Positions 20,742 through 26,104 of a stretch of DNA of 33,763 bases are shown here, piece after piece. Position numbers and translations under genes: made by a program. The notes beneath the pieces were generated by a model. The model saw only the letters and a program-made list of their open reading frames with translations. It searched no databases and was not told the origin of the DNA. The stretch lies in the IMG/VR virus record IMGVR_UViG_3300050821_008520, positions 1 to 33,763 of that record; one strand, written 5' to 3'. The number at the start of each line of letters is the position of its first letter. Positions within the stretch are counted from its first letter, which is position 1. Source of the stretch: a virus.

Positions 20742-22862
20742 TCAAATCCCCCAATCTCGATCAAACAATTTTGGTTCATTCATCTTTCTCTTCACAAACT
20801 CCTTACAAGTATCCAGTGGGGGTAGATGATAGAACCTTTTAAGAATCCCTCCTATTCTCTTCCTAACAATTACCATCTCATTTGGGGCCATGGTTTTGAA
20901 GACCATCCCAAAGCTTACTTGATTCCCTCGATCATTTGCTCTGGTCCCCGAGGAGTTGAAGTAATCCCTATACAAAGCGTCTACCTGAACATAAGATTCC
21001 CATTTATCCCCTCCTCGAGTAGGAGTTCCTTGCATAAGTCGCTGTAACCACCATCCCAGAATAGGATTACTGTTTGCTGCAGTCAGAATCTTATTCTTTG
21101 TAATGGCCCCCGTATCAGGAAGTTTTCTTAGATTCTTTGTGATCTTGTAATTCTTCAGGTACCAGAGGAGAGATTCTGGGCCCTCATTTTCCATCTCAAA
21201 CTTCAGGGCTTCAAAATAATCATAGTCTTCATACCGTTTATTTGATACGTCAATAATACAGAATCGACGTGCATTACCGCTAGCGGGAACTGCCCACACA
21301 TCATTGGTGGCCATGATAACCCTGAGATAATTTTCCATCTCAAAGGAATCAACCCCCTTCGGTTCATAAGTAAGAATATCCCCCGTAATCATGTTATGAA
21401 GCACTTTCTCCTGTTGATGGTTCCCAGCCCAACAGGATTCGTCAGCAAACACCATTAGTTTATTGGCTAAATGAAAATTATGTTTTCCAAACAGGTGATT
21501 GGAGTTAGTAGAAACTGCTCCATAGGTCCCATACATCTTTAAGATATACTGTGCAAAGAGGGTTTTACCAATCCCCTGCTCTCCTTGAAGGATCAGAGCC
21601 ACTCCAGGTCGGACCGTTGGGTTCTGAATGGCATCAGCTAACCAGTTAATCACATAGTCATATAAGGCCATGTCTTCAGAACAGATAACTTCCTTGATGT
21701 GATTTAGAAATAACTGACACCCCCCCTTATCGGGATTCTCATTAACAGGCCATCCCTTCCAAAGGTTGTATTCCATCTCCCTACAACCATCAGGGGCAAA
21801 CACCATTCGTATGTAGTTCCTCCGCTCAGGAGCGTTTAGCCACACATCAAATTTAAGTTTGGGTTTTTTCTTATCCTCAACGATCTCTCCTTTATGACGG
21901 AACATGTCCCGAGCATCTGTAACCTTTAGGAATTGAGGGTGATTCAATGACCAGTAACCCCCATCCAGAAGAATCCGGGTTCGTCCTCCCAGGTTGATAA
22001 CCCCAATTTCCTGGTTGAACTCGTGGACCATATTCAGGGACCTAACCCCCATCCAGTCGATCACGCGGGTTCCAATATCCGGGCCCAGGATATTCATGAG
22101 GGAAGGAATCCCAGGGACTTTCTCGTTCTTCTCGAGGCGCTTTTGCTGATACTCAGCCTTCAGCCTCATGTCCAGCTCTTCGTCCCCAGCTGCATCAGCA
22201 ATTGCCCCGAGCCACTCATCAACGTAGTCAGGGTCTCGCTTCATGCGAAGCATGAGACCACACAGGGCTACGGCAAGTTCGTCCCGTTTTCCTGAGGCCC
22301 ATCCGTGCCGGAGCACAAGTACTGCTGCGGCAAGATCTCCAACACGTTGATAGAGCTCGGTGGCTGGAACGTCACGAGGAGGAAACTGCTTCCATGCTTC
22401 GTCATAGAAGTTAATGGATTCACCTGAAGGGTGAATTGATCCAGGCCCAACCGTTTGAGCGCCGTCAGATCGAATTTCAAGGAGCATTCCTCCATCTTTC
22501 ATCGGTGAAGCGTACTTCGTTGTCTTTGAATCCTTGACCGTGTACATGTAGTGGGATCGAGGCGCTGACTTGCGACCGAACACCCAATTGGTTCCAGGAA
22601 GGATTCTAGGCGCGAGTTTAACGGCCTCCGGGCAATCTAAATCAATATCCGTGAGATTCTGGGATGACCGGCCCAGAATAATCCCAATGTTGTAGTCGGT
22701 GAAAATACTCGCCGCTTCAACATTGGTGTAGAACTTTGTCGTCCAATCCTTTTCAACGGGTTTTTTGGAATGAGGATGGATTTTTGTTAGGGCTATCTTC
22801 CTCTTGAGATAATCGTATGCCATACGACTGCCGATGGCATCCCTGATCTGCACAACCGTCAC
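20742..22862 (-). CDS. Primase-polymerase/SF3-type helicase replication protein
   Basis: The 706-residue protein joins two replication activities. The N-terminal PrimPol-like domain has TDIDLDCPEA (71-80, metal-binding acidic pair), SHYMYTV (103-109, the S-H motif) and LEIRSDGAQTVGPGS (127-141). The C-terminal ATPase, similar to D5/DUF5906-type SF3 helicases, has Walker A GEQGIGKT (426-433), Walker B KLMVFADE (467-474), sensor VIMATND (514-520) and GNARRF (528-533). It probably unwinds and primes the phage origin. Translation starts at GTG 22862 after AGGGGA; no ATG lies nearer. Confidence 0.87.
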   Translation of the reverse strand: MTVVQIRDAIGSRMAYDYLKRKIALTKIHPHSKKPVEKDWTTKFYTNVEAASIFTDYNIGIILGRSSQNLTDIDLDCPEAVKLAPRILPGTNWVFGRKSAPRSHYMYTVKDSKTTKYASPMKDGGMLLEIRSDGAQTVGPGSIHPSGESINFYDEAWKQFPPRDVPATELYQRVGDLAAAVLVLRHGWASGKRDELAVALCGLMLRMKRDPDYVDEWLGAIADAAGDEELDMRLKAEYQQKRLEKNEKVPGIPSLMNILGPDIGTRVIDWMGVRSLNMVHEFNQEIGVINLGGRTRILLDGGYWSLNHPQFLKVTDARDMFRHKGEIVEDKKKPKLKFDVWLNAPERRNYIRMVFAPDGCREMEYNLWKGWPVNENPDKGGCQLFLNHIKEVICSEDMALYDYVINWLADAIQNPTVRPGVALILQGEQGIGKTLFAQYILKMYGTYGAVSTNSNHLFGKHNFHLANKLMVFADESCWAGNHQQEKVLHNMITGDILTYEPKGVDSFEMENYLRVIMATNDVWAVPASGNARRFCIIDVSNKRYEDYDYFEALKFEMENEGPESLLWYLKNYKITKNLRKLPDTGAITKNKILTAANSNPILGWWLQRLMQGTPTRGGDKWESYVQVDALYRDYFNSSGTRANDRGNQVSFGMVFKTMAPNEMVIVRKRIGGILKRFYHLPPLDTCKEFVKRKMNEPKLFDRDWGI

Positions 22863-23895: not shown

Positions 23896-23998
23896 CTACT
23901 ATATTTCATTTAAAACTTTTTAAAAGAGGTTGAAAAAATTTTCTGTACCCAACTTTTTGGTGAAATAGAAATTTTGTCAAAAAAATCCTGGGGGTCGA
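23896..23998. other. AT-rich segment between leftward promoter and iterons
   Basis: About 100 bp of A/T-rich sequence with A and T tracts (tttttaaaag at 23917-23926, ttgaaaaaatttt near 23930). No convincing gene. Next to an iteron array this would be a natural candidate for a duplex-unwinding element (inference). Confidence 0.4.
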
Positions 23999-24141
23999 CT
24001 TGTATACAAACTTTGCATACAAAACTTGCGTACCGACTTTGCATACAATCCTCGCATGCAAAACGTGTATGCAATCCTCGCGTGCAATGTTTGTATGCAA
24101 TTCGTGTGTGCGATGAATGCATGCAAGGATTGCGTACAATA
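23999..24141. repeat. Array of eleven 13-bp palindromic iterons; candidate replication origin
   Basis: Eleven tandem units of exactly 13 bp follow one another without spacers. Consensus is yTTGYRTRCAAnn, with a near-palindromic TGYRTRCA core; unit 1 (TGTATACA) and unit 10 (TGCATGCA) are perfect palindromes. Unit starts: 23999, 24012, 24025, 24038, 24051, 24064, 24077, 24090, 24103, 24116, 24129. The strict phase with variable bases between cores marks binding sites, not a coding repeat. Together with the flanking AT-rich stretch and the leftward primase-helicase operon, this looks like a replication origin. Partition or repressor binding are alternatives. Confidence 0.8.
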
Positions 24142-24200
24142 TCGCATCGTGAACTTGTAACATCACAACATTTTTTTCGTACATCATATATTATTGAAAT

Positions 24201-24219
24201 ACACAAACGATGTTTGTGT
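24201..24219. promoter_or_regulatory. Perfect 8-bp dyad, operator-like
   Basis: ACACAAAC (24201-24208), GAT, GTTTGTGT (24212-24219). It lies just upstream of the first rightward ORF of the dinucleotide-depleted island. No T tract follows, so an operator or 5' hairpin is more likely than a terminator. No good -35/-10 pair is visible beside it. Confidence 0.5.
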
Positions 24220-24224
24220 GATTC

Positions 24225-24695
24225 ATGTTCATTAACAACGAAACGACACACGACGCGCATGCATCGCGCATGACGCGCGTGATCGTTCAACAACTGGATA
24301 TCATCATGACGAAACGCAATCAACGCGCAAACGCACGCAACAACGAATCGAACGTCACAAACGACGATGCGCACGTGCATATCGAAATGAACGTCAATGA
24401 CGACGCGTCGCACGATATTGTGCACGATGTCATCAACGCGCAAATCGATGCACAAATCGATGATGCAAACGACAACGCAACGTCAACGAACGTTGTGACG
24501 TTGAAACACATCATTGCAATGCACAAAATCAAATGTGACGCAAAATTGATTCGTCGCGTGTTGCGCAAATATTATGCGTCGAAAATCAATCATCAATTGC
24601 GCGATGCGTGGACATTTCACGAATCGCAAATCGATGATGTCGTTAAATTGATCGACACGCATTGTCGTTCAATGAAATCGTCGACAAACGCATAA
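24225..24695 (+). CDS. Putative DNA-binding protein of the island, no Gly or Pro
   Basis: The frame gives 156 residues from ATG 24225, or 129 from ATG 24306 (MTKRNQRANARNNES). Neither start has a Shine-Dalgarno sequence, since the island lacks AGG/GGA. The first 85 residues are a low-complexity Asn/Asp/Ala/His/Val-rich stretch. Residues 91-150 look folded and basic (TLKHIIAMHKIKCDAKLIRR, then an RVLRKYY helix and WTFHESQIDDVVKLI), recalling helix-turn-helix domains of phage early proteins that pair 'LK.I......D....R..LR' with a final W..... helix. There is no Gly or Pro in the whole chain. A strong terminator follows 23 nt after the stop. Coding is likely but not certain. Confidence 0.55.
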   Translation: MFINNETTHDAHASRMTRVIVQQLDIIMTKRNQRANARNNESNVTNDDAHVHIEMNVNDDASHDIVHDVINAQIDAQIDDANDNATSTNVVTLKHIIAMHKIKCDAKLIRRVLRKYYASKINHQLRDAWTFHESQIDDVVKLIDTHCRSMKSSTNA

Positions 24696-24717
24696 TCATT
24701 ATCAACAATATCAAACG

Positions 24718-24750
24718 CGCGACACGTCAAATAAACGTGTCGCGTTTTTT
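24718..24750 (+). terminator. Strong intrinsic terminator, island
   Basis: A perfect 10-bp stem CGCGACACGT / ACGTGTCGCG (24718-24727 and 24735-24744) with a 7-nt loop and six T (24745-24750). It also obeys the island's dinucleotide rule in every base. Confidence 0.9.
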
Positions 24751-24753
24751 ATT

Positions 24754-24954
24754 ATGTCATACGAAAATTTCATGCACGATTGCATCGTGCATTCGTCAAT
24801 CATTCGTGTTGCAATCGTCGCATCGTTTTTGAATATGACGATCGATGAATTGATTCACGATTGTTTTCATAATGAATTTGACGAATTTGAATTTTATTCG
24901 TCGAATGATTTCAACGATTTCGTTGATTTCGTATATACGAATTACGTGCATTAA
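24754..24954 (+). CDS. Small acidic Phe/Asp-rich protein of the island, no Gly or Pro
   Basis: A 66-residue frame starts 3 nt after the T tract of the terminator and has no Shine-Dalgarno site. The N-terminal half (MSYENFMHDCIVHSSIIRVA) is mixed; residues 29-40 (MTIDELIHDCFH) look helical, and the rest is rich in Phe, Asp, Asn and Tyr (FDEFEFYSSNDFNDFVDFVY). The start so close behind the terminator means its mRNA would begin in or before the hairpin, or be leaderless. Restricted dinucleotides lengthen chance ORFs here, so the call is tentative. Confidence 0.45.
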   Translation: MSYENFMHDCIVHSSIIRVAIVASFLNMTIDELIHDCFHNEFDEFEFYSSNDFNDFVDFVYTNYVH

Positions 24955-24956
24955 TC

Positions 24957-25100
24957 ATGACGATCGATGAATATAACGAATTATTTCATGCAATTGAAAA
25001 ATTGCATAATGACATTGACAAATTAATCAACGATCAATCGATCGAATCACAATTCGATTTGTTGTATCAAATGATTGAAAACATATGTGACGACACATAA
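24957..25100 (+). CDS. 47-residue acidic helical protein of the island, no Gly or Pro
   Basis: ATG 24957 to TAA 25100 encodes MTIDEYNELFHAIEKLHNDI and so on, an acidic, heptad-like helix rich in Ile, Leu, Asp and Asn. It starts 2 nt after the previous stop and begins with the same MTIDE as an internal segment (MTIDEL) of that protein, hinting at a partial duplication. A terminator follows 17 nt after the stop. No Shine-Dalgarno site; translation might be coupled to the upstream gene. Confidence 0.45.
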   Translation: MTIDEYNELFHAIEKLHNDIDKLINDQSIESQFDLLYQMIENICDDT

Positions 25101-25117
25101 CGCATACACAAACCCTA

Positions 25118-25145
25118 ACGCACATCAAATCGATGTGCGTTTTTT
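25118..25145 (+). terminator. Intrinsic terminator at the end of the island
   Basis: A 9-bp perfect stem ACGCACATC / GATGTGCGT (25118-25126, 25132-25140), 5-nt loop and a T6 tract (25140-25145). It closes the rightward transcription unit of the island. Confidence 0.88.
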
Positions 25146-25291
25146 ATTGCCTATTTCCCACGCCCATCCCACATCCACACTTCAAACCCATCCGGCCGCC
25201 CCACCTATCTCCCACCCGACTTCCCGCACCGCACCAAATCTGCAACCCGCTGTGCGGCTCAGCCGCCCTTTCCAAAAACCGCAATTCATGT

Positions 25292-25318: not shown

Positions 25319-25377
25319 TTGAAGTGGTTGGACCAACCGCTGCGGGCCGGCTAACCCAACTGTGTGGCCAATGATAA

Positions 25378-25861: not shown

Positions 25862-26104
25862 AAAGTGGACCGGCTGCGCCAAGCGGACGGACCAACTCTA
25901 CGGCTTGTTAGACGGACCGTCCAATCCAGGGTGGAACGGCTTAACCGCTGAGACGGACCACCCAATTAGACGTGCGGCAGCCATTTGAAAAGCCGAGCCA
26001 CGTGGACAGTTTTGAGTTTGGTTGGACGGCCCACCCACTTGGGTTACGGCCAGACAGGGAGTTTGGCTTCGGCGGGAGGCCGGTGGACGGCCCGAGTGCT
26101 TGAG
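25862..26104. other. Gene-free segment with GGAC-rich repeats
   Basis: No supported gene. GACGGACC occurs three times in 74 bp (25886, 25911, 25952), with related GGACGG/TTGGAC motifs further on (near 26020 and 26083). GC-rich short inverted motifs are frequent, so this could encode a structured RNA or protein-binding sites. Confidence 0.45.
25976..26000 (+). repeat. Direct repeat copy B
   Basis: GGCAGCCATTTGAAAA then GCCGAGCCA. Near-copy of 25292-25318, in the same orientation. Confidence 0.65.

Follow-up and report, generated by a model that had tools for sequence, protein, structure and literature searches.

The stretch of DNA analysed here (the window) spans 33,763 bases and is the IMG/VR virus record IMGVR_UViG_3300050821_008520. 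It represents a fragment of a tailed-phage genome in which the portal protein is SU10-like, the terminase belongs to PHROG 38, and a Prim-Pol/DUF5906 primase-helicase is also encoded. Given that terminase relatives in bacterial genomes were mostly proteobacterial (e.g., Nevskia, Pseudothauera, and Aromatoleum), the host was likely a proteobacterium. Near the replication module lies an island of unusual base-step usage that coincides with one apparent transcription unit, in which a leader, ORF1, a terminator, ORF2, and ORF3 follow each other up to a second terminator. The features are, in window coordinates:

20742 to 22862, minus strand: Prim-Pol/DUF5906 primase-helicase, the replication module near the locus
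23981 to 23997, plus strand: element AAAAATCCTGGGGGTCG, which borders the array on its left and is conserved in the relative
23998 to 24153, no strand: repeat array of roughly twelve units, each of 13 bp, that share a palindromic core, TTGYRTRCAA (autocorrelation 0.58 at 13 and 0.65 at 26)
24127 to 25260, plus strand: broader zone in which the coding strand has no AG, corresponding to an 893-bp AG-free zone in the relative
24156 to 25111, no strand: island without AG, GG, CT, or CC except at three steps, established by recount and shuffles
24295 to 24298, plus strand: TGGA 5' of ORF1, putatively ribosome-binding, containing one GG exception
24306 to 24695, plus strand: ORF1, 129 aa, with a conserved C-terminal half (68% identity over the domain)
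24717 to 24753, plus strand: intrinsic terminator between ORF1 and ORF2, which obeys the rule
24754 to 24954, plus strand: ORF2, 66 aa, acidic, 35% identical to ORF2 of the relative
24957 to 25100, plus strand: ORF3, 47 aa, whose first 16 bp repeat ORF2 bases 24835-24850
25113 to 25260, plus strand: C-rich, G-poor tail with no AG and many CC, possibly rut-like, with a similar tail in the relative
25117 to 25148, plus strand: second intrinsic terminator, just before which the zone free of C-pyrimidine steps stops

We propose that this unit is an autonomous phage operon encoding a regulator predicted to bind DNA, along with one or two small proteins of acidic character. The C-terminal half of ORF1 was predicted to adopt a small helix-turn-helix-like fold; most of this domain had a pLDDT of 80-89, against 63 for the whole model and a poorly predicted N-terminal half, and the best viral match in a structure search was weak (E 0.015). 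Glycine and proline were wholly missing from all three proteins. The 13-bp array resembles iterons or an operator array and may function as either. Next to it lie the conserved element CCTGGGGGTCG and an AT-rich stretch, the ensemble having an origin- or operator-like appearance, and the array, the AT-rich stretch, the primase gene, and a transcription divergence point are mutually adjacent. No clear promoter was found within the window, and no known RNA family matched the locus near its gathering score. The C-rich, G-poor tails that follow the operon in this phage (25113-25260) and in the relative (L002 3412-3588) resemble Rho-utilisation sites. Degenerate 30-nt repeats were observed at 25342-25371, 25865-25894, and 25931-25960, and AGCCATTTSAAAAGCYGAGCCA occurs twice nearby (at about 25298 and 25978), with a similar form in the relative.

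In its layout, the unit is reminiscent of acr-aca style operons and morons, with which it shares a predicted helix-turn-helix regulator, small acidic proteins, its own terminators, and upstream repeats. However, no sequence similarity to the island operon was found among them, and we know of no base-step rule in such operons. It is the predicted fold of ORF1 and the acidic small proteins that would place the unit in this class. A recently imported moron should be absent from the same place in relatives, whereas the relative that covers this position has the locus, with conserved flanks.

The base-step rule and its limits

The island comprises 956 nt (A324, C198, G173, T261; GC 39%), and among its 955 steps only three belong to the avoided set (AG 0, GG 2, CT 1, CC 0). 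This recount agreed to the base with a sequence-only reading of the window, including the exceptions at CT 24294, GG 24296, and GG 24610. Composition-keeping shuffles of the island gave a mean of 184.7 for the four steps together (sd 9.7, minimum 150), in line with the roughly 190 that had been anticipated, and chance was rejected (3 vs. 185 ± 10). Composition as a cause fails on the same shuffles, as had also been argued from the abundance of the reverse pairs, GA (75) and TC (71). Among the other steps, CG was strongly over-represented (99; odds 2.77) and TA scarce (37; odds 0.42), with CA at 98 and TG at 72. The island is therefore also CpG-rich and TA-poor, and avoidance is only part of its signature. 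Restated, the base after C is nearly always a purine, and the base before G is nearly always a pyrimidine. The few exceptions have a functional look: the two GG steps are the TGGA before ORF1 and the sole Trp codon, and the CT adjoins TGGA. Trinucleotide counts were all predicted by dinucleotides to within about 1.5 sd, indicating a pure nearest-neighbour (first-order) rule, and a rule on longer motifs was rejected.

The limits differ slightly between strands. Purine-G (RG) steps are rare from 23994 to 25255, with exceptions at AGG 24126-7 and GG 24296, 24610, and 25194, while the zone free of C-pyrimidine (CY) steps spans 24155-25112 except for 24294. The rule was obeyed in the leader, the intergenic gap, and the terminator as well as in the ORFs, so that the sequence-only reading was right to place it below the codon level. 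In a codon-choice null for ORF1, 15.1 AG, 15.0 CT, and 13.6 CC were expected, and none of any kind was observed. On this null, together with the obedience of non-coding parts, codon usage or protein composition was rejected as the cause. Avoidance of RNA structure was likewise rejected, given that terminator-like stems were more frequent in the island (12) than in shuffles (2.4).

The rule is local. Sliding-window odds, which had been put forward as a check, were normal elsewhere in the window (about 0.8-1.27 for 500-bp segments clear of the island edges), and across the other phage and bacterial loci retrieved, 726 kb in all, no 400-bp window fell below 0.55 outside the islands of this phage and its relative. 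One low window, L004:1-400, was dismissed as a further island, since it reflects an in-frame protein repeat (YGNARVSGDA..., L004:1-294) at a contig end. A short literature search found no described counterpart, as had been supposed. We know of no process that bars four of the sixteen base steps throughout a kilobase, coding and non-coding alike, while sparing the remaining genome.

The same locus in a related phage

Searches with ORF1, ORF2, the RHH gene, the primase, and the upstream element recovered one relative with the locus and none further; the remaining relatives were too distant or truncated, so that this one alone covers the position and the comparison is between two genomes, one of them a fragment. 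ORF1 was not found in 484 bacterial genomes of two orders in a search without a positive control, which makes this weak evidence. The relative is a 57-kb contig, IMGVR_UViG_3300028023_000002 (L002, G001), with a terminase 85% identical to that of our phage. Both flanks and the first two ORFs are conserved (ORF1 64% identity over 72 residues, E 4.5e-27), while ORF3 was not found there. To the left of the array position it carries the element AAAAATCCTGGGGG, although clear periodicity of the array was not seen, and downstream it has a terminator-like hairpin that shares the CCCTAAC lead, then a tail rich in C, and shared sequence beyond that tail.

In this relative, the rule is partial and strand-biased. 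Its coding strand runs for 893 bp without AG, the next longest AG- or CT-free stretch of the genome being 245 bp, and every GG in the core (4277-3569) is preceded by T. C-pyrimidine steps are only partly depleted, with CT at 0.37 and CC at 0.61 of expectation, giving strand counts of AG 0 vs. CT 16 and GG 11 vs. CC 33. Codon choice again does not account for this, with no AG observed against 14.5 (ORF1) and 5.5 (ORF2) expected. The two phages have their exceptions at comparable sites, namely the TGGA leader, where the relative has TGGATA, and the Trp TGG. Outside the island, odds were normal in the relative's genome. A second, weaker CpG-rich patch poor in RG and CY was observed in the same genome at L034:4180-4720, where the four steps stand at 0.5-0.7 of expectation.

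A graded rule at the same place, between conserved flanks, makes chance, assembly error, and recent import unlikely. Assembly error or chimera in particular was rejected, given that an independent contig has the homologous locus between conserved flanks. The sequence-only reading had held that homologous phages with normal composition at this locus would speak against it; the sole relative with the locus instead carries a weaker rule. Its suggestion of foreign DNA was not supported in the sense of a recent arrival, given that both flanks are homologous.

The relative also encodes a thymidylate-synthase-like protein (L036:10027-10851) with Asp at the substrate-selecting Asn position, which also matches CMP hydroxymethylase. 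This gene sits near a kinase/MazG-like fusion, and the genome further has a dCMP deaminase and a uracil-DNA-glycosylase-like gene. Modified cytosine is therefore possible in the relative, but nothing ties these base-modification genes, including the dCMP-hydroxymethylase-like protein, to one operon, and we rejected them as the cause. This genome also has genes for several HNH endonucleases and for a Thoeris inhibitor that resembles Tad3.

Selection or mutation at the locus

The main rival to selection is a context-specific mutator tied to the unit's transcription or replication, which would change C before a pyrimidine on either strand. Its target would be exhausted here and only partly so in the relative, purifying selection having spared the Trp codon and the ribosome-binding site. 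We consider this possible but doubtful. A mutator would explain the pure first-order structure, the like effect on coding and non-coding DNA, and the sacrifice of glycine and proline. It is also favoured by synonymous differences from the relative, which in ORF1 and ORF2 were mostly transitions (26:5, vs. 151:109 in the primase), and by CT to TT being the commonest difference. The nearest-neighbour structure and the transition excess are what keep this reading alive. However, simulated saturation of CY to TY on both strands gave a GC of 0.22-0.25 and a CpG of 0.04-0.05, while the island has 0.39 and 0.104; CpG is doubled, and AA stands at 0.10 where C-to-T decay predicts 0.20. Both CpG and C before purine are enriched above the phage's own level: 65% and 78% of NNY codons before a purine end in C, against 39% elsewhere in the phage, which suggests that C before purine was favoured and not merely spared. 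Moreover, CC in the relative pairs with CG in this phage at 6 of about 22 sites, a transversion that would be expected from choice among allowed codons. The same codon was used at conserved amino acids more often in ORF1 (0.59) and ORF2 (0.64) than in the primase (0.44), terminase (0.49), or RHH gene (0.39), which would suit constraint better than hypermutation. Silent change at the locus was not faster than in neighbouring genes, although an exhausted target could mimic this. CpG, the GC of 39%, and the pace of synonymous sites thus disfavour simple C-to-T decay by cytosine deamination, and the mutator proposed by the sequence-only reading stands as a possibility, only not in this form.

Context-dependent hypermutation is known from RIP in fungi, from APOBEC/AID, and from bacterial DNA deaminases, and the island shares with these a nearest-neighbour rule on both strands and a local footprint. 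It differs in that GC is not lowered as decay predicts, CpG is raised, and CC-to-CG differences occur, and no evidence of a deaminase was found at the island locus. Phage base hypermodification is dinucleotide-specific as well, at TG/TC in M6, ViI, and phi W-14 (PMC6449724), and phage enzymes can thus act with two-base specificity; however, the base it modifies is T within TS, a step common in the island, and no sequence avoidance has been described for it.

Four further explanations were considered. An RNA enzyme or binding protein attacking purine-G in RNA is an unlikely cause. While the zone equals an apparent transcription unit, the coding strand is AG-free in both genomes, and the relative's strand counts point the same way, it would need the relative to be transcribed in one direction and this locus in both. 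Antisense transcription is an assumption, the phage's other genes are all full of RG, and the abundant terminator-like stems leave structure avoidance no part as a reason. Derivation of the operon from a replicon where the rule is general seems decidedly unlikely to us: no genome with such a rule was met, the flanks and ORFs homologous in two phages indicate no fresh insertion here, and a fading strand-symmetric rule would not leave AG at 0 with CT at 16, even though the CpG-rich, C-ending codon usage differs from the remaining phage in both genomes and the relative has its second patch. We give little credence to the exclusion of primer starts beside an origin, which the sequence-only reading had raised. 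Bacterial DnaG starts at CTG, CTA, or CCC (PMC5204125), and because these starts are all 5'-CY, the island offers almost none on either strand, the only one being CTG 24294. Its neighbours would fit an origin, the antisense strand of both zones lacks CT, and a cumulative GC-skew minimum, confounded by gene direction, lies within a few kb in both genomes. Yet the relative's coding strand keeps 17 CTG (the other strand none), avoiding all eight CY trinucleotides exceeds any known primase's need, the characterised phage PrimPol sites GTG and TTTGGTTA (PMC8718748) mismatch the avoided steps, and an origin at the locus is itself a candidate. Evasion of CRISPR PAMs or restriction, likewise raised earlier, appears highly improbable. 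The motif set fits, given that RG on both strands covers NGG/NAG, AAG, and CC PAMs, and phages are known to lose short motifs through DNA-level selection across codons (PMC4246573). However, that depletion was studied across whole phage genomes and concerns longer motifs, while here two-base steps are nearly absent from one operon; a cut anywhere would harm the phage, and yet RG and CY are normal elsewhere in its genome.

Our preferred reading, advanced tentatively, is that selection has long acted on this unit at the nucleic-acid level, through an agent that we leave unnamed. Selection, rather than mutation, would maintain the rule by acting against the purine-G step, equivalent to C-pyrimidine on the opposite strand, within an operon beside a repeat array and replication genes. 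Given that the constraint lies mainly on the coding strand in the relative and on both strands in this phage, the agent would read the two-base step one strand at a time. That the rule maps onto itself under reverse complement suits a DNA-level agent, while the strand bias in the relative suits one reading single strands. A rule confined to one unit would also confine the agent to that unit, through its transcription, its transcript, or an origin next to it; candidates touching only this unit would be priming or nicking linked to an origin, or an enzyme that works on the unit's transcripts. Because PAM evasion should be genome-wide, transcript-level avoidance would need antisense transcription, and primase sites mismatch, we limit our commitment to selection at the nucleic-acid level. 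Against it, the stripping of every glycine and proline from three proteins is hard to imagine site by site, and the strand difference between the two phages is unexplained by one simple agent. It is conceivable, and again only tentatively proposed, that an enzyme specific for a two-base step (RG/CY) acts on the single strands of one transcription unit of a phage, as DNA or as RNA, and has shaped nearly every base of it at the cost of all glycine and proline.

The newness we claim is that of the phenomenon and not of a proven mechanism. This small locus, of which a graded relative exists, is open to recoding tests. Something new has to be at work, whether a selective agent or a type of mutator bound to sequence context.
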